Below are positions 1-11,281 of a DNA stretch of 64,000 bases, piece after piece. A program made the translations under genes and the position numbers. A model generated the notes under the pieces. The model searched no databases, was not told the origin of the DNA, and saw only the letters and a list, made by a program, of their open reading frames with translations. The first letter of the stretch is position 1. Each line of letters opens with the position of its first letter. Source of the stretch: Polaribacter irgensii 23-P (GTDB lineage: Bacteria > Bacteroidota > Bacteroidia > Flavobacteriales > Flavobacteriaceae); contig NZ_CH724148.1 in assembly GCF_000153225.1 (NCBI RefSeq), forward strand, positions 2,372,611 to 2,436,610, given 5' to 3'.

Positions 1-780
1 AAAGTAAAGAAGAAAAATATGGTTATTATTCCAGACACAGCCAACCAGAGCAGGATGAGTTATAATAAGCACAGCAAAAAAACTACACATCTCTGAAAAG
101 GCCTATTTTAGCTTTCCAAAACCACAAAAGTATACAATGCGATAAGAGCATTCGCAGGGTATTCTAGGGATACTTGTGCAACAGACAGAAAAGCCTACAT
201 TGCTGGAAGTATCTACAAACGAATCAAAGCATATCGCAGCATACCTATTTTTTTCGGAGTTTGAAATACACTGCCATATACTACGTGTTTAATTTTTAAG
301 GACCACTTTCAAAACGAAATTATAAAAAATTGACTGCCCTAAAACGCCCCGTCTAATTTGCTAAGAAAAATCTTTCATCCTATTTTTTGCCGCAGCTAAA
401 TTTTAAATACGAACTCTAAAATAATTATTAGAAAATATTTCACCAATCTAATAGAAGAGTCAATGTTAAAGACACAATCCCAAACAATCTTAAATCTTTC
501 TCCCAATCTAAAAATTTAAATTGAATCCTAGCGTCTGAAAAAAGTATATAGTAGTTACTAAGAACACAGAGCTTCGAAAAATAGAAATGTGTTGTAAACT
601 TCTTTTTCATCTAAAGAGTAAAAAAGAGTAAGACAGGCAAAAATAAAAACAATAGCTTTTCAAAAAATAATAAAACGCTGTCGTTTTATAAAGTAAGAAA
701 ATGGGCGCACAGATTCAAATAATACCCAATATACTGCGATGATTTATGTGCAGTTATTCAAAGCATGGCTCTATGCACGT
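1..780. other. gene-free stretch at the window start
   Basis: No reading frame on either strand looks like a protein here, and no RNA gene or repeat shared with the rest of the window was recognised. The stretch is AT-rich and broken by stops in all frames. It may be decayed cassette DNA, because a worn copy of the array's recombination-site family begins just after it, but that is inference. Confidence 0.4.
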
Positions 781-861
781 TCAGACGGATTTCCTTGTTT
801 TGTTGTATTTAGCAAACTACCGTCTTTATCCACGCAACACACGTATACAAATACGTTGCTT
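781..861 (+). other. degenerate right half of an attC-like site
   Basis: The run from the GACGGATTT segment through CTTGTTTTGTTGTATTTAG, CACGCAAC and TATACAAATACGTTGC lines up in order with the right half of the well-preserved sites at 5492-5626 and 8748-8882. The closing box is GTTGCTT at 855-861. The left half could not be recognised. I read it as a worn member of the same attC-like family, which would put the array's left edge near 780. Confidence 0.4.
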
Positions 862-895
862 TCCCCCCAACCCTCACTAAAAAGAGGAAAGCAAC
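855..895. repeat. 10-bp perfect inverted repeat with 21-nt loop
   Basis: GTTGCTTTCC (855-864) and GGAAAGCAAC (886-895) are exact reverse complements. The first arm is also the closing box of the degenerate site just upstream, so the two arms may be the opening and closing boxes of a gene-less mini-cassette of about 30 bp. An ordinary hairpin is the alternative; no T-run follows it. Confidence 0.45.
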
Positions 896-1033
896 CCAAC
901 ACTTTAATGCAAGCATAATACTGCACCCTATTTTCAGGGATCCGCAAATTATACTGAATTCAGGGGTTGACAGGCGGTAGAATAAAAACTATATTTTAAA
1001 CAGTTTAAGAAAAGAACCTAAAGTTGGCTTTGA

Positions 1034-1120
1034 GCACCACTGCTGGGAATAATCGTAGGTTGTATTTTCGCTGTTGTATGTCTAGTAGGAGCCAGTTATG
1101 CTGTCGCAGATACTTGTTAA
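1034..1120 (+). other. cryptic hydrophobic Cys-containing peptide frame
   Basis: This 28-codon open stretch just upstream of the 70-aa membrane protein reads as a hydrophobic Gly/Ala/Val/Cys-rich peptide ending in GASYAVADTC. It has no ATG, and a TGA stop immediately precedes it, so as it stands it is not a normal gene. It is listed because the copy at 6573-6659 keeps the same frame without indels and with mostly silent or conservative changes. It may be the tail of a small bacteriocin-like or leader peptide whose 5' part is frameshifted. Confidence 0.25.
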
Positions 1121-1135
1121 TTAAAAATTAAAAAA

Positions 1136-1348
1136 ATGATAAAACATTCAAAGAAAACAGTGTTCTATTTTTTACTTTTTACTTCCATTATGACTGGAAT
1201 CTCTTTAGCAGATGTTAAATGGAGTATTGTAAAAGCAACAGAAAATGGCTTTAAGGAAATATTATTACCCTTAATTTTTTGCTTGCTAACTATCAACTTT
1301 TTAGTTTCTTATGTAGACAAAATTAAGAAAGAAAATAGGAAGAGTTAA
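1136..1348 (+). CDS. small membrane protein (70 aa), array copy 1
   Basis: A 70-residue protein with no recognised family. Two hydrophobic segments are visible, at about residues 8-25 and 40-60, with a lysine-rich tail after the second, which predicts a small two-span inner-membrane protein. The ATG lies behind an A-rich leader (AATTAAAAATTAAAAAA) typical of flavobacterial starts. It sits inside a long repeat also present at 6451-7160, where the same gene is frameshifted near its start. It follows a cryptic hydrophobic peptide frame by 15 bases, so a peptide-plus-membrane-partner pair is possible but unproven. Confidence 0.55.
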   Translation: MIKHSKKTVFYFLLFTSIMTGISLADVKWSIVKATENGFKEILLPLIFCLLTINFLVSYVDKIKKENRKS

Positions 1349-1904
1349 TTTGATAGAGTGCCTATAAACAGAACTTGGCATAACACCACATATAAAAGAA
1401 CAGCAGTGAAATGCAAGCTAAAAGCGTTTGCTTAACTGCTGTTTTGATTTACAATCTGAAAATAAAAGGGTTTTTTAATCCGCTATGTTATACGGATAAT
1501 ACCAGTACTCCCCTAAAAGCCCCTTCTAAAAAAAGAACGCATAACTAAAATAAAACGGCAGTACTATACCCATTTAGAGGGATAATAGAATTATACTGTT
1601 TTCAGGGATTGACACGCATTAAATAATACGCTATGTTTATAAAGCATAAAAAAAGAAACCTAAAGTTCGTTTTCGGACCCATATTCTAAAAAGGGCAACT
1701 GCTGTCGGTGAGTACTATTTTATACAACATGAAGAATCAATAAAATGGTAAAAAACGGATAAACATCAAACAGCAAGAATGCTAAGATTGAAACTGACAA
1801 AAGAAAAAAGTAGATTAAATAACCAAAATCAAAAAAGTATAATTTTTTTAATAGCGAGAGAGTCTAAAAAAAGCGAAAAGATTTTTTCATAAATTTAATA
1901 AGTT
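1349..1904. other. gene-free spacer with array repeats
   Basis: It holds a GGCATAAC box (1377-1384), a third, more diverged copy of the long element that begins with CAGCAGTGAAATGC at about 1401 (compare 3090 and 6939), and a CCCATTTAGAGGG hairpin-like motif near 1571. The part from about 1650 to 1904 shows no gene and no clear repeat. Confidence 0.5.
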
Positions 1905-2651
1905 ATGAACGTATTTAAAATTTTAAGAAACAAAAGAATCATTATTTTATTTAGTTTAAGTTTTTTGTTTTTCTCCTGTTCTCAATATGAGTTAAATAAT
2001 AAAAGAGTTTTTGACTATGCAATGTATCAAGCATATAAAGACAATCCAGTGGATATGCAAAAAGTGGAAATATTAAAATCTAAATTAAAAAAAGGCTTTT
2101 CAAAATCTGAAATAAATGAACAAATTTTAAACTTAGTGAATGACCAGTATCACACAAATTTAAAAATCCCTAAAAAAGTTCTCTATATTTCAGATATAAA
2201 CATAGATGAAATGAAATCTTTTAGCCTCTCAGAAAGCTTGATAAGTAAAGAAGAAATTAAATTAATAGATGAATTATCTTTAAATATTGGTTACAAAGGT
2301 CTAGACAGTGCATTAAAAATTTTAGAAGATAAAGTAATCGCTTCCAATTTGGATATAGCCTCTTTTAAAAAATATAATAATTTAGCGATTAGCCTTAAAG
2401 TTGTGAACATAGAAAACCCTCAACTTTTTAACAACAACAATCAACAATTTAAATTAAATAAAAAAGGAACAAACTTGTCTAAAATTGGAATTTTAGCTTG
2501 TATTGTTGCTATCATCGTGTGGATTGCAGCAGTAATAAGTTTTGTCCCAGCCTGTGCAACTTGGGTTCTTTGTGGGTTCGCAGGCTTCGCACTAATAGCA
2601 GCAACAGTTGAGGTTATATTAGAATGTGTCCCAAATACCCCAGAGCAATAA
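1905..2651 (+). CDS. predicted lipoprotein with Cys-rich hydrophobic tail
   Basis: A 248-aa protein of no family I recognise. The first 25 residues are a basic start, a hydrophobic stretch and FFSC, a plausible lipobox, so it is probably exported and lipid-anchored. Residues about 30-185 are polar and predicted mainly helical. The last 60 residues contain two hydrophobic segments separated by a Cys-containing turn, with cysteines spaced through them (ILAC, VPAC, VLCG, ILEC). That tail resembles hydrophobic membrane-active peptides more than an ordinary anchor. The next gene, a multi-span membrane protein, starts 24 bases downstream in the same direction. A toxin/immunity pair is one reading; nothing in the sequence proves it. 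Confidence 0.6.
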   Translation: MNVFKILRNKRIIILFSLSFLFFSCSQYELNNKRVFDYAMYQAYKDNPVDMQKVEILKSKLKKGFSKSEINEQILNLVNDQYHTNLKIPKKVLYISDINIDEMKSFSLSESLISKEEIKLIDELSLNIGYKGLDSALKILEDKVIASNLDIASFKKYNNLAISLKVVNIENPQLFNNNNQQFKLNKKGTNLSKIGILACIVAIIVWIAAVISFVPACATWVLCGFAGFALIAATVEVILECVPNTPEQ

Positions 2652-2674
2652 AGTATTAATAAAAATAAAGAATT

Positions 2675-3088
2675 ATGAAACTTTCGAAAAAATTGCACAA
2701 ATTTTCTATAATAACAATTCTTTTTTTAATTTTTTTCCTCTCAGTTGCAGTACTTTATAATTACAACAACTCAAATGAATTTTATAAAAATATAAAAACT
2801 TTTTTCTTATCTATATTTATTGTGAGTTTACTCATAATTAGTTTTTTGAAAAATCATCAAAGTTCTTTTTTAAATAGACCCTTAACCACATTCTGCTTAT
2901 GCCTGTTTACATTTTCTTTTTTAGCCTTACTTATTAATAAATTAATTTTAACCGGATTTAAAAATGAAATTATTTTATACGATCAAATTTCATCAATTGT
3001 TTTTGGTTTTTTTTCTTTTATATTCATCATTTATCAACACTACTACAATATGAAAAAAGAAAAAAATATAACGAAACCAGATCTCTAA
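2675..3088 (+). CDS. multi-span membrane protein (137 aa)
   Basis: A 137-aa, strongly hydrophobic protein with about four predicted membrane segments (roughly residues 10-28, 42-58, 70-90 and 107-125) and a lysine-rich C-terminus that should face the cytoplasm. No family is recognised. It starts 24 bases after the predicted lipoprotein and shares its direction, so the two are probably co-transcribed and may work together. Its stop is at the edge of the 3090-3534 repeat. Its low complexity makes homology searches unreliable; the reading frame itself is convincing from length and uniform composition. Confidence 0.55.
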   Translation: MKLSKKLHKFSIITILFLIFFLSVAVLYNYNNSNEFYKNIKTFFLSIFIVSLLIISFLKNHQSSFLNRPLTTFCLCLFTFSFLALLINKLILTGFKNEIILYDQISSIVFGFFSFIFIIYQHYYNMKKEKNITKPDL

Positions 3089-3089
3089 A

Positions 3090-3534
3090 AACAGCAGTGA
3101 AATGCCAGCTAAAAGCCCGTTCTGGACTGCTATTTTTGTTTACAATGCGAAAGTAAAAGGATTTTTAATCGGCTATTTTATGCGAATAATACCGGTACAC
3201 TCCAAAAATCCCCTTCTAAAAAAAACACGCCACTTTAAAGTAACTGCAAAGGTATACCCTATTTACAGGGATACCTAAATCATACCATTTTCGGGGATTG
3301 ATACGAATGCTATTTTAATGTAGTTTTGTTTCAGAAGTTACTATTGAAAAAGTTTGCTTTTAAATCCTTATCCGATAGATAAAAGGAGCCGTTCGTTTTG
3401 TACAACTTTGAAAGCTAGAAGTCTTTTTTTTCAATAATTTGACGCTGAAAAGAAAAACACAAAAACGTATAAAGTTCCGCCTATCCCCCCAATATAGAAA
3501 CTAATACGGATAAAAGGTAAGACTATAAACAAGT
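3090..3534 (+). repeat. ~445-bp array element, copy 1 (partner 6939-7384)
   Basis: The sequence from CAGCAGTGAAATGC to TATAAACAAGTTG is nearly the same as 6939-7384, in order and almost in length. Both copies stop matching exactly at the GTT box, where different gene units begin (GTTGGCAACAAG here, GTTGTGGCTAAT in the other). No gene lies inside. It contains the CCCTATTTACAGGG motif near 3257-3270. It behaves like a shared acceptor or upstream unit whose end is a recombination point. Confidence 0.75.
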
Positions 3535-3539
3535 TGGCA
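3457..3539 (+). other. attC-like site, second subtype (copy 1)
   Basis: An ACACAA box followed by CGTATAAAGTT on the left and TATAAACAA-GTTGGCA on the right reproduces the outer parts of the 132-bp family (left xxACAAC-ACCGTATAAAATT, right TATACAAACAC-GTTxxxx) in about 83 bp. The centre is different and lacks the GAAAGTCC hairpin. The closing GTTGGCA (3533-3539) is the exact reverse complement of TGCCAAC (4264-4270), which ends the following gene unit. Confidence 0.5.
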
Positions 3540-3558
3540 ACAAGCAGGAAAACAAAAA

Positions 3559-4254
3559 ATGAGGAAAATTGAGAAAATAGAAAATCACCTAAAGGAATCT
3601 AATAATTCCCAACATATAATCAATGGAATTAAAGCCATTTTAGCAAATTTTCCTGTTGGAAGTGGAATTGCCTCATTAATGTCTGATTACATTCCTTCTC
3701 AACGCGAATTGAGACTTATGGAGTTTACAGAAAATATAGCAAGAGATTTATCTGAATTAGAAAATGAAATAAATAAAAACTATCTGAAGTCAGATGAATA
3801 CGCTTTTATTTTTGAAAAATGCTTTAAAGGGGCTGTAGAAAATTATCAAAAGGAAAAAATAATTGCTTTCAGAGCCATATTAATTAACTCATTAATAGAG
3901 TTTAAAATTACTCAAACGGAAAAAGAATATTATTTGAATCTCGTTGACAATCTTTCGTTATTGCACATCAAAATATTGAGTTTTTTAGCTTTTCCAAAAA
4001 AGTATCTTGAAATAAATGGACTTGATGAATCCATTATATCTGGTAGTTTTAGTTCTTTTTTTCCAAAAGTAATTCCCGAAGCAAATATTGAAATTATTAA
4101 ACTTGCTTTCAAAGACTTACACAATTATGGATTTACGAATACAGATAGCGGAATATTCAGCACACTGACGTCAAGCAGCGGATGGAATTTATTAGGAGAT
4201 AACGTTTCAAAAAATGGACGAAATTTTATCGAGTTCATTTCATTGAATGAATAA
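3559..4254 (+). CDS. uncharacterised cassette protein (231 aa)
   Basis: No family is recognised. The protein is predicted mostly helical: a charged start, a short less polar Gly-rich segment at about residues 25-42 (ANFPVGSGIAS), a long helical middle, and a Ser/Thr-rich C-terminal part with winged-helix-like spacing. It has no signal peptide. It is the only gene of the unit bounded by GTTGGCA (3533) and TGCCAAC (4264), with its stop ten bases before the closing box, a tight fit typical of gene cassettes. The genes around it suggest a host-defence or stress cargo, but this is inference from context only. Confidence 0.6.
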   Translation: MRKIEKIENHLKESNNSQHIINGIKAILANFPVGSGIASLMSDYIPSQRELRLMEFTENIARDLSELENEINKNYLKSDEYAFIFEKCFKGAVENYQKEKIIAFRAILINSLIEFKITQTEKEYYLNLVDNLSLLHIKILSFLAFPKKYLEINGLDESIISGSFSSFFPKVIPEANIEIIKLAFKDLHNYGFTNTDSGIFSTLTSSSGWNLLGDNVSKNGRNFIEFISLNE

Positions 4255-4263
4255 ACAGCCAGC

Positions 4264-4395
4264 TGCCAACACCGTGTAAATTTAATTGCTTACTTCTAGC
4301 CTACTTACGAAAGTCCTCACGGACTTTCTATCTGTGAATTATTTATTAACTTCACTCCTTAACGCCGCAACTAAACTTATACAAACACGTTGTGC
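4264..4395 (+). other. attC-like recombination site 1
   Basis: A 132-bp imperfect inverted repeat. The outer boxes are TGCCAAC (4264-4270) and GTTGTGC (4389-4395). The inner arms are GTGTAAATTTAATTGC on the left and GCAACTAAACTTATACA on the right, which pair with bulges. The centre is a perfect GAAAGTCC-TCAC-GGACTTTC hairpin (4309-4328). Box spacing, imperfect arms and position directly after a gene stop match integron attC sites. The family is shared with 5492-5626, 7991-8124 and 8748-8882. Confidence 0.7.
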
Positions 4396-4431
4396 TTAAT
4401 GTAAAAAAAAACCCGCATATCATTATAATTT

Positions 4432-5466
4432 ATGAATACAGAAGAAATTTTATCATTACCTACTTTAGATAGACTAAAATATATAAACTCTGTAAATGAT
4501 ACGTTTGGATTTTTAAAAAAATTGAAAAGTGAAAAAAGTGAACTTCCAAGCGAATTAGAAAGTCTATTTAAAAGATTAGAAAAATTAAATATTTTTAATG
4601 AATCTAAACTAAGTTGGTGTGAAAAATATCCTGATTTCGGAGAAATTTTCCGAATAATGGATTTATACTTAAAATCTGAAATTTTAGTTGAATTTGGGGA
4701 AAAATCGCTTCCTGAATCATTATTAAATCAAGCTTTAGAAGTTTTTAAAAAAACAATTTCATTTAAAACTTCAAGTACATACAAGAAACTAACCAAAGGT
4801 CTTACTAATTCAAGATATAGGTATTATAACTACTGCATATCAAAAGAAATAGCAAGCAGTTTCCAAGACGAATTTTTAGATTGGGGAATTGAAATTAGCA
4901 ATTTATGGAATGAAATATATTATACAAAAGAGGATTTTTTTAATGACACTGGCTATGACCGAACAAGTTGGGAAACATACATCAAATACCCTAATATGCT
5001 TGAACGGAAAAAAGATGAACTTAAAAAACAGTCAGAAAAAGCTTTTGCATTAATGGCAAGTGGTTTAGAATTAATTGAAAAGCACAACACGATTATTACA
5101 GAAGAATACAAAAATAACGCTGTTGAAATGTCATTGTACGAACGTGAATTGGAAATTTCCCTAATGGTAGAGTTAGAAAATGGAAATGACAAACAGTATT
5201 GTTATGTCTATACTTTAGAATGTGAATTATTTGTCTTTTATGTTGGCATTGCATCTAACCCTAAAGAAAGGTTTGAACAACACATAAGAGGTGCTTTTAG
5301 CAATGAATCTCATCTCTTTAAGTCAAAGTTTATACAAAAGTATAATAACGAACTAAAACAAAATATAGTTTACGAAGGAATTAGAAAAAACTGCAAATTA
5401 TTTGAAAAAGAATATATTGCTATACACAACCCACTTGGAAATATGACACAAGGAGGAGAAGGATAA
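4432..5466 (+). CDS. protein with C-terminal GIY-YIG nuclease domain
   Basis: 344 aa. Residues about 256-344 look like a GIY-YIG catalytic domain: CYVYTLE and FYVGIA give the two aromatic strands (Y-Y...Y-G), an R sits in the helix after it (NPKERFEQH), a conserved-type Glu follows near KEYIAIH, and it ends in NMTQGGEG. GIY-YIG domains cut DNA or RNA using one metal ion. The first 250 residues are helical, charged and not recognised; they may bind the target or a partner. The gene fills one unit of the array (GTTGTGC at 4389 to ACACAAC at 5492, 6 of 7 bases complementary). A defence or mobile-element role is plausible; the nuclease assignment is firmer than the role. Confidence 0.75.
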   Translation: MNTEEILSLPTLDRLKYINSVNDTFGFLKKLKSEKSELPSELESLFKRLEKLNIFNESKLSWCEKYPDFGEIFRIMDLYLKSEILVEFGEKSLPESLLNQALEVFKKTISFKTSSTYKKLTKGLTNSRYRYYNYCISKEIASSFQDEFLDWGIEISNLWNEIYYTKEDFFNDTGYDRTSWETYIKYPNMLERKKDELKKQSEKAFALMASGLELIEKHNTIITEEYKNNAVEMSLYERELEISLMVELENGNDKQYCYVYTLECELFVFYVGIASNPKERFEQHIRGAFSNESHLFKSKFIQKYNNELKQNIVYEGIRKNCKLFEKEYIAIHNPLGNMTQGGEG

Positions 5467-5491
5467 TTAAACAAGTTAGAGAAAACACTAA

Positions 5492-5626
5492 ACACAACAC
5501 CGTATAAAATTAATTGCTGGCTTTTAGCGTATTTACGAAAGTCCAAACGGACTTTCGTAGTTCTTGTTTTATTTAGTAAATTAGTTCTTTAAACCACGCA
5601 CCAAACCATATACAAACACGTTATGC
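5492..5626 (+). other. attC-like recombination site 2
   Basis: A 135-bp site of the same family. The boxes are ACACAAC (5492-5498) and GTTATGC (5620-5626); the left inner arm is CGTATAAAATTAATTGC. The central hairpin has an 11-bp perfect stem, TACGAAAGTCC (5534-5544) with GGACTTTCGTA (5549-5559), around an AAAC loop. The closing GTTATGC is the exact reverse complement of GCATAAC (6452-6458), which closes the next unit. Confidence 0.7.
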
Positions 5627-5705
5627 ATAATCAAAAAAGTCACCCCTGAATTCAAAATTATCTTCCAAAATAGATTGATTGAAATAAAAAAAGTTGGATA
5701 AATAT

Positions 5706-5736
5706 TTTTTTTACTCCAAAATGTAAAGTATATTTG
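5706..5736 (+). promoter_or_regulatory. Bacteroidetes-type promoter of the membrane/Xre pair
   Basis: TATATTTG at 5729-5736 is a full match to the TAnnTTTG -7 element, and TTTT lies 19 bases upstream at 5706-5709 where TTTG is expected. The first gene starts about 50 bases later. So this unit appears to carry its own promoter, which is less usual for integron cassettes and fits one encoding a regulator. Confidence 0.55.
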
Positions 5737-5756
5737 TCATTATGGAAAATATACTT
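5726..5756. promoter_or_regulatory. operator-like inverted repeat over the -7 element
   Basis: AAGTATATTT (5726-5735) and AAATATACTT (5747-5756) are exact reverse complements separated by 11 bases. The left arm covers the -7 promoter element. The second gene downstream encodes an Xre-type repressor, so a dimer bound here would shut off its own operon. The arrangement is seen; the repressor assignment is inference. Confidence 0.5.
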
Positions 5757-5786
5757 ATTGTTTATTAATAATCTAAAATTAAAATT

Positions 5787-6236
5787 ATGAATGTAAAATC
5801 ATTTATGGAATGTGAGAGAAAAAGCCTTGAAAAGATGAAAAGGTATCAGTTATCCAACAAATTCAAGAAAATTGGAATAGGAATAATTATAATATCGGTA
5901 ATAGCATTTATCGTGAATAAATTATCCATTGAAAATATAGACTTAAAACTAACATCCAAATATGGAATATTAATTGGATTATTACTCGTTTCAATTTCAA
6001 AAGAAAAAATAGAAGATGAACTAATAAAATCTTTGAGAATGCAATCTTATACTTTTGCATTTATTGCAGGTGTTATAATTACTCTATTAACAAATCCAAT
6101 ATTTAACTATATAGCAAATTTAATTTCTGAAAAACAGGAAGGAAGTTTTGAAGGTGTTGGAGATTGGGAAATTTTATGGATTTTGTTGAGCATTCAAGTT
6201 TTTTATTTTGAATTCTTAAAGCGAATGAACAAATGA
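5787..6236 (+). CDS. membrane protein paired with Xre regulator (149 aa)
   Basis: 149 aa with four likely membrane segments (about residues 28-45, 58-70, 88-108 and 127-143) and a basic N-terminus (ERKSLEKMKRYQ). No enzyme motif is visible. Its stop overlaps the next start as ATGA, so it is translationally coupled to the helix-turn-helix gene. Small membrane proteins followed by a short Xre regulator are a common pair in Bacteroidetes and Firmicutes; the membrane partner's job is not known from the sequence. The pair forms one unit of the array. Confidence 0.7.
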   Translation: MNVKSFMECERKSLEKMKRYQLSNKFKKIGIGIIIISVIAFIVNKLSIENIDLKLTSKYGILIGLLLVSISKEKIEDELIKSLRMQSYTFAFIAGVIITLLTNPIFNYIANLISEKQEGSFEGVGDWEILWILLSIQVFYFEFLKRMNK

Positions 6237-6457
6237 AAAATCGACTAAAGATTGAAAGAGCAATATTAGACTTAACACAAGAAGAACTTGCTAATAAAAT
6301 TGGAGTATCGCGTCAAACGATAAGTTCAATTGAAAAAAACAGATATGTACCTTCAACAGTTCTTTCATTAAGACTTTCCAACTTATTTAAAAAACCAGTT
6401 AATGACTTCTTTGAGTTAGACGAAAATGAGAAAGCCAACACTTTAATAAAAGCATAA
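6233..6457 (+). CDS. Xre/Cro-type helix-turn-helix regulator (74 aa)
   Basis: 74 aa, nearly all one HTH_3 domain: the N-terminal helix carries RAILDLTQEELANKIG, the recognition helix is VSRQTISSIEKN, followed by the usual RYVPS turn and FKKPVNDFFEL. It is the short repressor class with no sensor domain. It overlaps the upstream membrane gene by four bases (ATGA). The stop codon lies inside the closing box GCATAAC (6452-6458), so the coding part runs to the very edge of the cassette-like unit. Autoregulation through the inverted repeat at 5726-5756 is likely. Confidence 0.85.
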   Translation: MKNRLKIERAILDLTQEELANKIGVSRQTISSIEKNRYVPSTVLSLRLSNLFKKPVNDFFELDENEKANTLIKA

Positions 6458-6572
6458 CACTACACCCTATTTTCAGGGATCCCAAAATTATACTGAATTC
6501 AGGGGTTGACAGGCGGTAGAATAAAAACTATATTCTAAACAGTTTAAGAAAAGGACCTAAAGTTAGCTTTGA

Positions 6573-6659
6573 GCACCACTGCAGGGAATAATCGTAGGTT
6601 GTACATTCGCTGTTGTATGTCTAGCAGGAGCCAGTTATGCTGTTGTAGATACCTGTTAA
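6573..6659 (+). other. cryptic hydrophobic peptide frame, copy 2
   Basis: Same frame as 1034-1120, ending in GASYAVVDTC, with no indel relative to copy 1 and mostly silent or conservative codon changes. It also lacks an ATG and is preceded by the same TGA. Conservation of frame between two drifting copies is the only reason to list it. Confidence 0.25.
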
Positions 6660-6674
6660 TTAAAAATTAAAAAA

Positions 6675-6888
6675 ATGATAAAACATTTAAAAGAGAACAT
6701 TGTTCTATTTTTTACTTTTTACTTCCATTATGACCGGAATCTCTTTAGCAGATGTTGAATGGAGTATTGTAAAAGCAACAGAAAATGGCTTTAAGGAAAT
6801 ATTATTACCCTTAATTTTTTGCTTGCTAACTATCAACTTTTTAGTTTCTTATGTAGACAAAATTAAGAAAGAAAATAGGAAGAGTTAA
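6675..6888 (+). pseudogene. frameshifted second copy of the small membrane protein
   Basis: The ATG at 6675 matches the start of the intact gene at 1136, but one extra base in the first ten codons (26 instead of 25 bases before the shared TGTTCTATTT) shifts the frame, and translation from this ATG soon stops. From TTG at 6700 the original frame is open again to the normal stop at 6888, giving 62 residues that match copy 1 almost perfectly. A shortened protein from the TTG is possible; the simpler reading is a decaying copy. Confidence 0.6.
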
Positions 6889-6938
6889 TTTGATAGAGTG
6901 CCTATAAACAGAACTTGGCACAACACCACATATAAAAG

Positions 6939-7384
6939 AACAGCAGTGAAATGCAAGCTAAAAGCGCATGCTGAACTGCTATTTTTATTTACAATCCGAA
7001 AGTAAAAGGGTTTTTAATCGGCTATTTTTTTAAGGATAATACCGTTACTCCCCAAAAAGCCCCTTCTAAAAAAAACACGCCACTTTAAAGTAACTGCAAA
7101 GGTGCACCCTATTTACAGGGATATCCAAATCATACCATTTTCAGGGATTGATACGAATGCTATTTTAATGTAGTTTTGTTTTAAAAGCGATTATTGAAAC
7201 AGTTTGCTTTTAAATCATTATCCAATAGATAAAAGGAGCAGCTCGTTTTGTAAAACTTTGAGATCTAGAAGTCTTTTTTTTCAATAATTTGACGCTGAAA
7301 CGAAAAACACAAAAACGTATAAAGTTCCGAATATCCCCCCAATATAGAAACGAATACGGATAAAAGGTAAGACTATAAACAAGT
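6939..7384 (+). repeat. ~445-bp array element, copy 2 (partner 3090-3534)
   Basis: Matches 3090-3534 from AACAGCAGTGAAATGC to the GTTG at 7383. No gene lies inside. Immediately upstream is GGCACAAC (6917-6924), a box-like sequence equivalent to GGCATAAC at 1377-1384. The copies diverge right after GTTG, where a different gene unit begins. Confidence 0.75.
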
Positions 7385-7390
7385 TGTGGC
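7307..7390 (+). other. attC-like site, second subtype (copy 2)
   Basis: Same layout as 3457-3539: ACACAA then CGTATAAAGTT on the left, TATAAACAA-GTTGTGGC on the right. GTTGTGGCTA (7383-7392) is the exact reverse complement of TAGCCACAAC (7989-7998) at the end of the following unit, a 10-base match. Confidence 0.5.
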
Positions 7391-7424
7391 TAATTAAAAC
7401 GAAACGTAAAATGAACGAACATTA

Positions 7425-7991
7425 ATGGAAGTAATTGGAATAATTATCGGTGTAATTGGAATTATAGTTGGAATTTATCCATATTACAGAAGTAAATATA
7501 TTTTAAGACCTGAATTGACTATTGAAATAACTTCAAAAGGAGGTTTAAGTGCACCAAGAGGTTTGAGCAGTAAGAATGTTTTAAACTCAGAAGGAAATAT
7601 TGACGGAAATAATGCAATCCGAATATTTGAATTAACTTGGAGATTTAAAGTGACAATTACGAATAATTCAGACTTGACCGCTTTTTATCCTGAACTTGAA
7701 TTTAATCCAACTGGTTCAAAATTTAGAATTGACAAAATCAACCGACTTAAACCAATCAAACCTTCCGAATCTTTGGAACTACTTGGGGAATTTAATAAAT
7801 ATGAGGAAGTTGAAGGGAAAAACAGAACAGATGTTGGAAAAGCACCACCAAACGAGTTTAGCGAATTAGAATTATTACTTGGCTATGAAAATTCTAAAAA
7901 ACGGAGATTTTATACTTTATTTGACTTTAACGAATCTGAAAAAAAGAATAAGTTCTTAAACAAAAAACCGAAAGATTACAGAAATAACTAG
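7425..7991 (+). CDS. membrane-anchored protein (188 aa)
   Basis: 188 aa. Residues 1-20 form one Ile/Gly/Val-rich membrane segment (EVIGIIIGVIGIIVG), followed by a tyrosine-rich turn and a polar domain of about 160 residues rich in predicted beta strands, ending in a Lys/Asn-rich tail. No family is recognised. Effectors and sensors in defence and cassette loci often have this anchor-plus-beta layout, but there is no specific motif. It is the only gene in the unit bounded by the 10-base matching boxes at 7383 and 7989; the stop codon overlaps the closing box. Confidence 0.6.
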   Translation: MEVIGIIIGVIGIIVGIYPYYRSKYILRPELTIEITSKGGLSAPRGLSSKNVLNSEGNIDGNNAIRIFELTWRFKVTITNNSDLTAFYPELEFNPTGSKFRIDKINRLKPIKPSESLELLGEFNKYEEVEGKNRTDVGKAPPNEFSELELLLGYENSKKRRFYTLFDFNESEKKNKFLNKKPKDYRNN

Positions 7992-8124
7992 CCACAACAC
8001 CGTATAAAATTAATTGCTGGTTTTAGCCAACTTACGAAAGTCCAAACGAACTTTCTTGGTTATTGTTTAATTTACTAAATTAATGCCTTAAAATACGCAA
8101 CTAACATTATACCAAACGTTGGCT
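7991..8124 (+). other. attC-like recombination site 3
   Basis: Outer boxes are GCCACAAC (7991-7998) and GTTGGCT (8118-8124). The inner arms are CGTATAAAATTAATTGC and GCAACTAACATTATAC, which pair closely. The central hairpin GAAAGTCC-AAAC-GAACTTTC has one mismatch. It lies directly after one gene and 26 bases before the next. Confidence 0.7.
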
Positions 8125-8149
8125 ACAATTAAAAAAAATCCTAACTGAA

Positions 8150-8743
8150 TTGAAAAACCTGAACTTTGAAACAATACTAGAAGATGCGCAAAAATTCTTA
8201 CGGACTGAAAACGATTCTTACATTCAAACTTATACCGAATTTATAAAATACTTTGAACAAATAAACGCTGGAAAAATAAACGAACATAATTTGGTAATTG
8301 CAAGTCATTTTGTTTATGGATGGATGCCGACAATTATTCATTTGAAATTGGAACAGAAAGACAAAGTTTTATTTTTATTAAATGCTGTGAAAAATGGACA
8401 CATTTTAAAAGTCAACGAACTTGAAATTCTAAAAAAATCAATAAATAACTCTTTAGTAGGACTTTCTAAACTTTTGCATTTTATTAATCCGAAAGATTAT
8501 GCGATTTGGGACAGTCGAATCTTTAGGTATTTAACAGAAAAGAAAAGTAGTTATGGAATTGACAGACCACAACTTTATCTTGACTATTTGAAAGGAATAA
8601 AGAACATTTCGGAAAATAAAGACTACGGAAAAATACACGATTTAATTTCTCGAAATTTTGAATATGATATTTATCCAACAAGAGCAATTGAAATAACAAT
8701 GTTTGAAACAGACAGAAATAGACAAAGCCGAATGAAAAAATAA
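8150..8743 (+). CDS. cassette protein, weakly glycosylase-like (197 aa)
   Basis: 197 aa from a TTG start; no in-frame ATG occurs near the beginning, so TTG or another non-ATG start must be used. The middle of the protein (LSKLLHFINPKDYAIWDSR) resembles a segment of OGG-like / HhH DNA-glycosylase-related proteins, where a Lys and a following Asp are catalytic. The likeness is short and recalled rather than computed. The rest is helical and unrecognised. It occupies the unit between GTTGGCT (8118) and GGGCAAC (8748), whose boxes match only in part. No signal peptide or membrane segment. Confidence 0.55.
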   Translation: MKNLNFETILEDAQKFLRTENDSYIQTYTEFIKYFEQINAGKINEHNLVIASHFVYGWMPTIIHLKLEQKDKVLFLLNAVKNGHILKVNELEILKKSINNSLVGLSKLLHFINPKDYAIWDSRIFRYLTEKKSSYGIDRPQLYLDYLKGIKNISENKDYGKIHDLISRNFEYDIYPTRAIEITMFETDRNRQSRMKK

Positions 8744-8747
8744 CTAT

Positions 8748-8882
8748 GGGCAACAACGTATAAAATTAATTGCTGACAAATCGATTACTTACGAAAGCCC
8801 AAACGGACTTTCGTCGTCAGTGTTTCATTTACTAAATTGATAGATTAAACTACGCGACTAACTTTATACAAACACTTTGTGC
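8748..8882 (+). other. attC-like recombination site 4, altered closing box
   Basis: Left box GGGCAAC (8748-8754), left arm CGTATAAAATTAATTGC, central ACGAAAGCCC-AAAC-GGACTTTCGT with one mismatch, right arm GCGACTAACTTTATACA. The closing box reads TTTGTGC (8876-8882) where the others have GTTxxxx, so the G at the expected crossover point is lost. It is the last clear site of the family in the window and may be inactive. Confidence 0.65.
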
Positions 8883-8927
8883 ATAATGCGGAAAATCGTT
8901 GTAAATATTTACATTTGAACTAAAAAA

Positions 8928-9013
8928 GCCAACGCGCAAACAGCACATTTATTTTTTTTCCAACACTAAATGCCAACGCTCAAAAAAATAAAAGAACTGT
9001 TCTTTGCCAACGC
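8928..9013. repeat. GCCAACGC motif cluster, left of the methylase
   Basis: The octamer GCCAACGC occurs at 8928-8935, 8972-8979 and 9006-9013, each in an A-rich setting. The same octamer recurs just after the following two-gene module (11300-11387). The third copy overlaps the -33 element of the module's promoter. Its origin is not known; it could be a protein-binding site or short mobile-repeat debris. Confidence 0.5.
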
Positions 9014-9033
9014 ACCAAATAGTACTAACTTTA
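9003..9033 (+). promoter_or_regulatory. promoter of the restriction-modification pair
   Basis: TTTG (9003-9006), exactly 19 bases, then TAACTTTA (9026-9033), one base from the TAnnTTTG consensus of Bacteroidetes. The methyltransferase ATG follows 26 bases after it behind an A-rich leader. This is one of the clearest promoters in the window. Confidence 0.65.
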
Positions 9034-9059
9034 GAAATTAAAGATAAAGATAATTTAAT

Positions 9060-10121
9060 ATGGCAATAAACAATTTAGCTGCAGCTAAAAAAGCCAAGAA
9101 TGACGAATTTTACACGTTATACTCTGACATACAAAAAGAAATACAAGCATATCTTGACTACAATCCAAATGTTTTTAAAGGTAAAACTGTTCTACTTCCT
9201 TGTGATGACCCTGAATGGAGTAATTTTACGAAATTTTTCGCACAGAATTTTGAACGTTTCGGAATAAAAAAACTGATAAGTACAAGTTACGCACCAAATA
9301 GCAAACCTTATCAAATCGGATATCAAGTATCTATATTTGAAGAAAGTGCACCACAATACGACAGCAACAAAACTGAAAGTCAAGGAAAAATATATACTTT
9401 AGAGAGAGACATTACAGAAGACGGTAGAATTGACGTTGACGATTTAGAATGGAATTATCTCAAAGGAGATGGAGACTTTAGAAGTGAAGAAGTAATAAAG
9501 TTAAGAGATGAAGCAGATATTATTATAACCAACCCACCATTTTCATTATTTCGAGATTTCTTGCAATGGATAATTGAAGCTGATAAGCAATTTGCAATTA
9601 TTGGGAATATAAATGCAATAGCCTACCAAGAGGTTTTTGCTTTAATTGCACAAAATAAAATTTGGTTAGGTACTGGAATGGGAAGATGGATTTCTGGATT
9701 TATTGTTCCTGACACTTATGAATTATATGGAACGGAAGCAAGAATTGATGATGATGGTAATCGGATTGTAGCAACAAATAATTGCCTATGGTTGACAAAT
9801 ATTGAACACGGTAAAAGATATCAACCATTAAAATTAATGACGTTAGCTGACAATAATAAGTTTAATAAAAAACTAAAAAAAAGAACTGCATACGAAAAAT
9901 ATGATAATTATGATGCTATTGAAGTGCCTTTCACAGATGCAATTCCTTCAGATTTTGATGGAACAATGGGAGTTCCAATAACATTTCTTGATAAATACAA
10001 TCCAAATCAGTTCGATATAATTGGTATTATGGCAACAACCAAAATAAGTGAATACAATTTTGGATATCCATTTGTAAATGGTAAAAAAAAATATGCTCGA
10101 ATTTTAATCAAAAAGAAATGA
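9060..10121 (+). CDS. EcoRI-family adenine-specific DNA methyltransferase
   Basis: 353 aa. The start (AKNDEFYT, then [18 protein letters not shown]) and the NPPF motif at about residues 158-161 within [11 protein letters not shown] identify the EcoRI_methylase family, which transfers a methyl group from S-adenosylmethionine to N6 of adenine in a specific DNA sequence. The length is close to that of EcoRI methylase (about 325 aa). The C-terminus has a lysine-rich end. Its stop overlaps the next start as ATGA, so it is coupled to a DUF262-HNH nuclease. A self-protecting modification enzyme is the obvious role. The target sequence cannot be read from the protein. Confidence 0.85.
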
Positions 10122-11281
10122 AAACAACATTAAGGAGCGAAATAACCGTTAAAGAAATCTGTGACGGTTTCGTGTATAATGAAGCAGAAGGAAAAGGTCT
10201 TTTCGGTCTTTCTGGAACTCTAACAATTCAACCAGAATATCAGAGAAATTATATTTATGCAGATGGTAAAAGAGATGTCGCGGTTATAGAAAGTATCTTA
10301 AAAGGTTATCCTTTAGGTCTAATTTACTTTAATACATTGAAAAACGGTCATTTTGAAGTTTTAGATGGTCAACAAAGAATTACAAGTATTGGAAGGTTTC
10401 TCACTTTCAAATTTCCAATTAAAGATGGAAATGGAATGGAACAATATTTTGATAGCCTACCAAGTGATAAGCAACAAAAAATTGAACAAGCAAAACTTTT
10501 AATATTTGAATGTGAAGGAGAAGAAAGTGAGATTAAAGAATGGTTTAAAACAATTAATATAGCTGGAGTTCCACTTAATGCTCAAGAACTTCGAAATGCC
10601 ATTTATTCTGGAGAATTTGTTACACTTTGTAAAGAAGAATTTAGCAATAGCCTGAATACAAATATCCAGAAGTGGAGTGCTTATATAAGAGGTAGTGTTG
10701 ATAGACAAGAAATTCTTGAATGTGGTTTAGACTGGGTTAGTCAAGGTAAAATTGACAACTATATGAGTAGCAATAGAAAGGAAAGCAACATTAAGGAATT
10801 GAAGACCTATTTTAATAGTGTTATTGATTGGGTATCAACAGTCTTTATTGATGTTGAAAGAGAAATGTGTGGTTTGGAATGGGGAAGATTATATGAAAAT
10901 CACCATAAAACTGCCTATAATCCAAATAAAGTTTCTAAACAAGTAAGAGAACTTTATGGAGACCCATTTATAAAAAACGGGAAAGGTGTTTTTGAATATA
11001 TTTTAGGAGGTTCAAATGAAACAAAATTGTTACAAGTGAGAGTTTTCGATGAATCAACTAAAAAATCAACTTATGCTCAACAAACAAAAATAGCAAAAAG
11101 CAAAGACAAATCTAATTGCCCACTATGTGCAGTCAGTAATAATTCTAACAAAAAAAAGATTTGGACAATTAATGAAATGGATGCTGACCACGTAACAGCT
11201 TGGAGCAAAGGTGGTGCAACTTTAAAGGATAATTGCGAAATGTTATGTAAAACTCATAATAGAGCAAAAGGAAATAAGTAG
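10118..11281 (+). CDS. DUF262 domain plus HNH nuclease, R-M partner
   Basis: 387 aa. The N-terminal half is a DUF262 (GmrS-like, ParB-fold) domain with YQRNY at residues 41-45 and DGQQR at 83-87, the NTP-site motif of the family. The C-terminal 54 residues are an HNH nuclease finger: C334 and C337, DH at 357-358, N372, C373 and C377, and HN at 380-381. DUF262-HNH proteins include modification-dependent restriction enzymes such as GmrSD. Here it is joined by a four-base overlap to an EcoRI-type methyltransferase, so it is probably the restriction component, with DUF262 acting as an NTP-using control or specificity domain. That role is inference from pairing. Confidence 0.85.

Follow-up and report, generated by a model that had tools for sequence, protein, structure and literature searches.

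Integrons have been reported for the Bacteroidetes/Chlorobi group, or for the Bacteroidota as such, in passages of two papers (PubMed Central (PMC) identifiers PMC2426708 and PMC8618304), and in the IntegronFinder 2.0 survey the complete integron given for the Bacteroidetes is that of Salinibacter ruber M1 (PMC9024848). According to an excerpt of another study, IntegronFinder reported none in a Tenacibaculum genome (PMC10013915). The relevant passage of PMC2426708 states that intI genes were selected by an additional domain or patch, the domain unique to IntI for which it cites Messier and Roy 2001. Here we describe a repeated element within a 64,000-nt stretch of Polaribacter irgensii 23-P (C1:2372611-2436610 of the 2.76-Mb, two-contig genome G000; hereafter the window), which is very probably the attI docking unit of an integron-like system. 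No description of such a system was found in the open-licence PMC literature on integrons of Flavobacteria or Bacteroidota, a collection outside which preprints lie.

The initial annotation of the window had noted two nearly identical copies of about 445 bp, at 3090-3534 and 6939-7384, that hold no gene and are followed by different genes. These coordinates proved right to within a few bases. Using blastn, copies A and B align as one block (3076-3536 and 6925-7386, on the + strand like every feature located below in the window; 462 columns, 90.5% identity), which starts 14 nt earlier, ends 2 nt later and runs through GTTG. In a search of the whole genome the second copy was recovered at E = 4.4e-180, which excludes a chance repeat. 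The 200 nt beyond the G of each copy are unrelated (28.5% ungapped identity), and no open reading frame (ORF) of at least 60 aa lies inside the element. Each copy comprises a terminator-like hairpin, a predicted promoter, a leader and an attI site. The hairpin, followed by a U-rich stretch, is a modest signal in copy A (3085-3142; RNA fold -13.3 kcal/mol, z -1.8, equalled by 17/200 shuffles); its counterpart in copy B lies at 6934-6992 (-14.7 kcal/mol, z -2.2, 5/200 shuffles). A known RNA family was rejected, as the one match within 500-9500 fell outside the element and far below the gathering score. A more diverged third copy, placed by the annotation at 1399-1621, is real (77% identity) and only partial: at 1399-1619 it covers element positions 1-219, that is, the hairpin and promoter part, and has neither the leader nor the attI/GTT site.

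The suggestion that the element might carry an attI-like site gained support from its last 65 bp, which match an attI copy (C1:1313492-1313556) lying directly 3' of a tyrosine recombinase gene (374 aa; G000:C1:1313601-1314722). In copy A this attI spans 3470-3535, with a AAAGTTCC..TATCC box, GGATAAAAGG and CTATAAACAAG|TT, where the bar marks the crossover (3533|3534); in copy B it spans 7320-7385, with the crossover at 7383|7384. We also considered attI as a folded strand and rejected this, since it folds no better than shuffled sequence.

The genes downstream of the element are separated by repeats of about 127 nt, whose ends read AACACCG..AATTGC and GCAAC..ATACAAACACGTTR and which we modelled as attC sites with a covariance model built from 60 sequences (R1). 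The model found four strong sites in the window and, with 150 of 5167 candidates scored, at least 86 at E <= 0.01 in the whole genome. In the stem formed by the R''/R' and L''/L' pairs, 96.1% of cells are paired. Both-sided changes occur in 85 cells, compared with 29 +- 3.7 in shuffles (0/500 reached this) and at most 25 when one side was slid; this covariation argues that the stem is real. In the 5' arm, columns 13 and 18 are mostly opposite C and remain unpaired (by eye), resembling extrahelical bases. The bottom strand outfolds the top strand in all three window sites compared (bottom z -1.7, -1.6 and -3.8).

We next asked whether the array obeys the logic of cassette circles: cutting a circle at G|TT requires that the cassette begin with bases able to pair with its own R''. 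Scoring 5 nt, 121 of 144 consecutive attC pairs were perfect, compared with a mean of 4.8 and a maximum of 13 in 2000 shuffles. The input consisted of a set of 141 matches together with 35 of 47 P. irgensii matches (the 12 weaker ones left out), with the majority strand taken per locus and pairs less than 60 nt apart or without GTT/AAC ends left out; one P. irgensii locus list could miss in-between sites. An earlier, motif-based set gave 77 perfect pairs out of 109 (shuffle maximum 12). The cassettes behind copies A and B scored 4/5 and 5/5, which favours the annotation's view of the box as an acceptor site. Eight attI sites of the genome scored 4, 5, 4, 5, 4, 5, 5 and 5, and a ninth (L196) scored 5. 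Among eight attI sites in three relatives (G003, G016 and G034), seven are followed by attC and scored 4, 5, 5, 5, 4, 5 and 5 (L189, L190-L194, L197); L188 has none. When the crossover was predicted from the R'' of the first attC alone, 17 of 19 loci in relatives placed it at TATAW..A|GTT, 99-237 nt past the end of the recombinase match; a twentieth locus, L062, a degenerate copy in G001 without attC, was left out.

We propose that the repeated element acts as the docking unit of a Bacteroidota integron, in which a hairpin of terminator type and a cassette promoter are followed by a leader and an attI of about 65 bp. The 374-aa recombinase would recombine attI, cut at G|TT, with a single-stranded cassette attC, folded from the bottom strand, so that the promoter-attI side stays and the DNA beyond GTT is exchanged. 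A single enzyme would thereby act on the attI next to its gene, on the six promoter-attI units A-F (of which A and B lie in the window) and on two more attI sites that lack this promoter (at 1792886 and 991549), all of these in trans.

The recombinase gene heads a cassette array, in the order DNA polymerase IV-like gene, DNA polymerase III alpha-like gene, recombinase, attI, cassettes. PF00589 was found in 26/26 members of its family. Residues R231, H320 and R323 are invariant, and H346 and Y355 are kept in at least 90% of members; we take these five to be the catalytic residues, and the enzyme probably catalyses the recombination proposed here. The two polymerase genes upstream share its orientation (a DNA polymerase III alpha family protein of 985 aa, over the TIGR00594 cut-off, and a DNA polymerase IV type protein of 404 aa, over the PRK02406 cut-off), and a divergently oriented helix-turn-helix (HTH) gene, also upstream, weakly matches a model of S24-type regulators. 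This order suggests that the recombinase is co-expressed with a DNA-damage operon. The linkage is not general: polymerase genes were seen at 4/30 recombinase loci, one of them weak, and several loci offered 1.5 kb or less of upstream DNA to look at. In G016 (L051/L195) the polymerase neighbour is 86% identical to that of P. irgensii and the recombinase only about 39%, such that different recombinases stand downstream of the same gene. The genome also encodes two other proteins, 301 and 306 aa long and Xer-like (a label we infer), that branch apart from the recombinase, which argues against the latter being the housekeeping XerC or XerD. A canonical IntI elsewhere in the genome was likewise rejected, as a search with the IntI model returned only the 374-aa recombinase and the two Xer-like proteins, none over the cut-off.

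Examining the whole genome revealed nine attI sites, six of which (A-F) have a common promoter part. Besides A and B, the copies of the element include a pair of 318-319 bp and a pair of 270 bp, a further four that are partial and lack the 3' end, and two that share the last 65 bp only; the ninth site, C1:991549 (L196), was found by pattern. The core common to A-F consists of CAGGGAT direct repeats, TTG-N20-TAGTTTTG, the leader and AAAGTTCCNNNTATCC..GGATAAAAGG..CTATAAACAAG|TT (eight sites and two partial copies aligned), and the integrase site and 1792886 share only its last part. The 3' ends of the eight aligned copies read ..ACAAG|TT, ..ACACG|TT or CTATAAACAAG|TT with small changes, and diverge afterwards. 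The 5' sides vary, with the terminator-like hairpin in A and B, a truncated attC in C, D and the partial copy F2 (R1 scores of 32.7-49.4 bits), and a region with a tiny ORF in E and F. The 1792886 site follows a coding remnant of a recombinase C-terminus (by eye) that is fused into an aminotransferase-like reading frame (L019:6477-8060, minus strand), with attI itself in place; a series of attC matches extends over about 53 kb downstream of this attI. The full 445-bp element was found in none of 57 other relatives (11 candidates scored per genome), six of which gave short pieces only, the one in G030 being the 65-bp attI.

Satellite sites were also found in a second species. G003 holds six sites within 3 mismatches of TTTATTCTCCATATAACSAGTTR (0 for the reversed-pattern control), one at the recombinase and five elsewhere, and G016 and G034 have one further site each with at most one mismatch, G034 with four more pattern matches at 2 mismatches. 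The five G003 satellites share 182-252 aligned columns with one another, of which some 120-190 bp lie further upstream and are specific to satellites; they showed no match to the 445-bp P. irgensii element. Four of them share only 64-67 bp with the integrase locus (L189), and the fifth, L193, also shares the next ~300 nt, apparently the same first cassette. We considered that the satellite promoter had been copied from upstream of the G003 integrase gene and rejected this, as no such match occurred in the 275 nt examined. At the integrase loci of G003 and G016 the recombinase reading frame takes in, at its 3' end, the attI box AAGTTCC..TATCCGGA; this could account for the FLLSG-like tail seen in this subgroup. 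The initial annotation had named a common continuation past GTTG in copies from other genomes as the observation that would speak against it. None was seen in P. irgensii, in the eight copies with a 3' end and site L196 (by eye, 15-90 nt); G003 provides one exception, as L189 and L193 (2/6 sites) continue past GTT with the same ~300 nt at 93% identity and the other four sites differ. We read this shared stretch as what seems to be a first cassette duplicated between docking sites.

The annotation had further suggested that the element might carry a promoter, and both copies indeed contain a predicted one, TTG-N20-TAGTTTTG (3298-3328 in A, 7148-7178 in B; consensus matches only), with the second box 213 nt before the element end. 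We take this box pair to be the Bacteroidota promoter consensus. Overlapping the upstream TTG is a direct repeat, CAGGGAT-N19-CGGGGATTGA at 3266-3301 in copy A (1 mismatch to the pattern) and CAGGGAT-N19-CAGGGATTGA at 7116-7151 in copy B (0 mismatches). Across the genome the pattern CAGGGAT-N19-CAGGGRTTGA, with its two CAGGGAT repeats 26 bp apart, occurs in 15 places if up to 2 mismatches are allowed, compared with one place for the reversed control. Six of the 15 belong to attI units A-F, another five to partial copies or to small operons next to these, and the remaining four lie elsewhere. Since 11 of the 15 places are at or beside attI units, it seems that a single regulated promoter is common to the docking sites, in what looks like a regulon. 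Full promoter consensus sequences also occur in 4/5 G003 satellites, with TTG 214-217 nt before GTT. The promoter of the element would rather likely be active. The CAGGGAT-repeat promoter of the attI units also precedes a small operon that is doubled in the window (890-1422 and 6429-6962, 93-95% identical), with a 70-aa ORF (1136-1348) in one copy and a 62-aa ORF (6700-6888) in the other, and in addition a possible short hydrophobic peptide.

To assess how widespread the system is, we surveyed relatives for the recombinase at E < 1e-50, which was found in 30/58 of them and in 26/35 within the genus. Within the genus, the median number of attC sites was 32.5 in the 26 genomes with the recombinase and 6 in the nine without (Mann-Whitney p 5e-4); over all 58 relatives, where distant genomes tend to lack both, the medians were 23.5 and 0 (p 1e-8). 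These counts rest on at most 59 candidates scored per genome and on stricter filters than the P. irgensii count. Among named genomes, in 25 of the best 80 of 590 loci the match begins no later than query residue 14 and so includes the N-terminal domain described below. All 25 are Bacteroidota by title, for example Algibacter, Flavobacterium, Algoriphagus, Winogradskyella, Seonamhaeicola and Zunongwangia. On the Chryseobacterium oryzae plasmid NZ_CP094530.1 (L166), a recombinase of the family is followed within ~105 nt by an attI-like site, ..CATATAAACAAGTTAG, and then by a VOC-family gene; the examined stretch of this plasmid gave no R1 attC match.

Several observations weigh against this reading of the element and its array. 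Recombination itself was not observed. In the circle test 23 of the 144 attC pairs were imperfect. The number of stem pairs with any both-sided change was 7 compared with 5.2, a value reached by 24/500 shuffles, and the three R pairs never vary. The circle test yielded no crossover at two of the 19 attI loci (G054 and G018), and at G030 it yielded an additional candidate that was weaker. The promoter calls are consensus matches: TTG-N20-TAnnTTTG occurs four times in the 64-kb window, two of these in copies A and B, the full consensus is missing at L191, L194, L196 (991549) and L197, and its last base is changed in copy F. Finally, attC sites (1-21 per genome) remain in 8 of the 9 genus members without a recombinase match at E < 1e-50, and therefore attC can persist or spread without the recombinase; of the 16 named loci given, a selection of the named ones, nine have R1 attC and seven have none.

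The alternative that survives best is that the satellites capture nothing at present and are mere relics of array heads, stranded when integrase genes were lost by deletion or when segments were duplicated by homologous recombination. The recombinase remnant in front of the 1792886 site would fit such a history, as would the ~300 nt shared by L189 and L193. In addition, E/F and A/B share upstream pieces in the manner of ordinary segmental duplicates, and for D and 1792886 the first attC tested is more than 3.5 kb away. However, all nine P. irgensii attI sites keep the 3' box and a complementarity of 4-5/5 to the cassette that follows. The promoter region is kept in A-F and was not found at the integrase locus, and the G003 set is built alike with no detectable similarity to the 445-bp element, a pattern that deletion of integrase genes does not explain. 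We regard the relic explanation as unlikely; the satellites may still be in use.

How the recombinase compares with IntI bears on a second alternative, an ordinary integron run by a canonical IntI, for which the missing additional domain and the N-terminal extension would be irrelevant. The attC/attI logic and the G|TTR crossover are of the integron type, the bottom strands fold as expected under this explanation, and the IntI model TIGR02249 matches 26/26 members at E 1e-3. However, the IntI insertion of about 42 aa is present in 0/26: between the positions aligned to 263 and 306 there are 43-44 residues, compared with 85 in IntI1 and 85-90 in four other insert-bearing proteins from the scan. 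The P. irgensii protein scores 178.7 bits, below the TIGR02249 cut-off of 265, and no protein of the genome exceeds that cut-off. A 103-row tree, computed without the columns of the insert, unites the five insert-bearing IntI in one clade (Shimodaira-Hasegawa-like approximate likelihood-ratio test 100) outside the Bacteroidota rows, which fall mainly into two groups of 32 (93) and 26 (91); six short or broken rows (L034, L112, L123, L125, L131 and L142) were excluded from it. A 29-row tree places IntI1 inside the recombinase group (91/84) on a very long branch. Recombinases L101, L103 and L104, from Spirochaetota, Firmicutes and Undinarchaeales metagenome-assembled genomes, branch near IntI, lack the insertion and have N-terminal extensions of 78-118 residues. 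Taken together, a canonical IntI integron is very improbable. Least credible is that the repeat is a non-autonomous transposon of the miniature inverted-repeat type, or a regulatory repeat family that stops at the shared box by chance: its promoter part, with the CAGGGAT repeats, does occur without attI at 1399-1619 and before the small operons near 927 and 6466, but the 5' ends vary from copy to copy with the 3' end fixed at G|TT, and the circle test links the box to the cassette and not to a transposon end.

The recombinase also carries about 95 N-terminal residues that are absent from IntI1 and are confidently predicted to form a small alpha/beta domain (predicted local distance difference test 85.7, predicted template modelling score 0.72). 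Compared with known structures, the model resembles XPB (2fz4, Z 6.8, 61 aligned residues, 2.5 A; below Z 8), tied with eIF1/SUI1-type folds (4mo0, Z 6.2; 5jb3, Z 6.3), and then the HARP domain of SMARCAL1 (4o66, Z 4.0, 50 aligned, 2.2 A) and ZorD, also at Z 4.0. Foldseek placed an eIF1-containing complex chain at the top (E 0.16) and HARP next (E 0.28), and no hit was significant (all E >0.1). The HARP model PF07443 matches 2/26 members (best E 7e-4), and unrelated Pfam models match as many or more (DUF7108_C, 6). The fold is therefore uncertain, XPB/HARP-like or eIF1-like, and the likeness is suggestive only; as a hypothesis, the domain might recognise DNA structure. No paper on HARP-bearing tyrosine recombinases was found in the open-licence PMC literature, as judged by title and start of abstract. 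A broader possibility, which we hold tentatively, is that this is a separate Bacteroidota integron lineage, in which a HARP/XPB-like N-terminal domain would recognise the folded attC in place of the additional domain regarded as indispensable in IntI, the satellites would be active, one integrase would serve several promoter-attI units that spread probably as attI-closed cassettes, and captured genes would land in separately regulated sites. Our confidence in it was lowered slightly because eIF1-type folds tie with XPB.

Within the window, the array following copy A comprises four cassettes and one unusual unit. Cassette 1 (3534-4389) encodes an ORF at 3559-4254 with no Pfam match at E 1e-3 and ends in an attC at 4268-4392 (R1, 119.4 bits, E 2e-22). 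Cassette 2 (4390-5620) encodes an ORF at 4432-5466 with a GIY-YIG domain just over the Pfam cut-off, scores 4/5 in the circle test and has its attC at 5496-5623 (115.7 bits). The unit that follows (5621-7383) begins at the attC crossover and has no attC of its own; as a whole it would consist of an ORF (5787-6236), an HTH ORF (6233-6457), an R'' remnant (AGCATAAC, 6451-6458) that matches the unit's own start in 4/5 nt (by eye), the second small operon (6429-6962), the promoter and attI. It looks like a cassette whose attC was replaced by promoter and attI, and excision and reinsertion of such an attI-closed unit could spread docking sites. Cassette 4 (7384-8118; ORF 7425-7991) and cassette 5 (8119-8876; ORF 8150-8743; circle test 3/5 only) follow, with attC sites at 7996-8121 (120.1 bits) and 8752-8879 (102.3 bits, with a degenerate R', TTTG). 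No attC match occurs after 8879 in the window at E 0.1. Genes resembling a type II methyltransferase and a restriction enzyme lie at 9060-11281, behind this last attC (PADLOC MTase_II, 346.7 bits; REase_II, 267 bits). The position of the array beside restriction-modification-like genes is consistent with the idea of integrons as stores of defence genes.

If our interpretation is right, gene-capture arrays of up to tens of attC would be common in the genus and present in several named Flavobacteriaceae, where the usual definition of intI misses them. The necessity of the additional domain for attC recombination would become directly testable, and the picture of one attI per integron would need revision.

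Comparing the system with those described, the top-scoring NCBIfam model for the recombinase is archaeal-type XerA (NF040815, 189.5 bits), and XerA structures lead the structural comparison (4a8e, Z 22.6, 257 aligned, root-mean-square deviation 7.6; 5hxy, Z 19.7, deviation 14.1), followed by IntI (2a3v, Z 18.4, 249 aligned, deviation 5.4). Unlike XerA, the protein falls below the model cut-off of 220, has the extra N-terminal domain and has an attC array attached. attC-type sites in a flavobacterial phage are known from Polaribacter phage P12002L, whose P12002L_attC2 was active with IntI1 according to a passage of PMC9892861. The array in that passage encodes methyltransferases, whereas the methyltransferase genes lie at 29-32 and 38 kb and the sole R1 match at 14.5 kb (L165:14502-14624, minus strand, E 5e-12), just 3' of gp24. 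As this match lies apart from the methyltransferase genes, no published P12002L activity can be transferred to R1-type attC; a search of phage records with one attC gave no match. In Treponema integrons, intI is likewise transcribed toward attI, in the direction of the cassettes, and the excerpt describes no satellites (PMC3607928). Closest to the unit at 5621-7383 are the delta-attI-type cassettes, attC-ORF-attI units with attI in place of attC; as excerpted, these are mostly 14-18-nt remnants of attI1 or attI2 in mobile integrons (PMC12901181), whereas P. irgensii carries a full, chromosomal attI behind a promoter-like region. With integrons at large, for which class 1 is the paradigm, the system shares a tyrosine recombinase with an attI and an attC array, the G|TT crossover, the R''/R' complementarity, the imperfect attC hairpin and the fixed promoter side with exchange of the cassettes. 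It differs in its recombinase, where the additional domain of IntI is missing and a further N-terminal domain is present, and in several attI sites per genome, some with their own promoter. As judged from its sequence, the system has the anatomy of an integron and agrees with one in the circle test; the defining feature of the protein sets it apart from IntI integrons, and it has several promoter-attI units.

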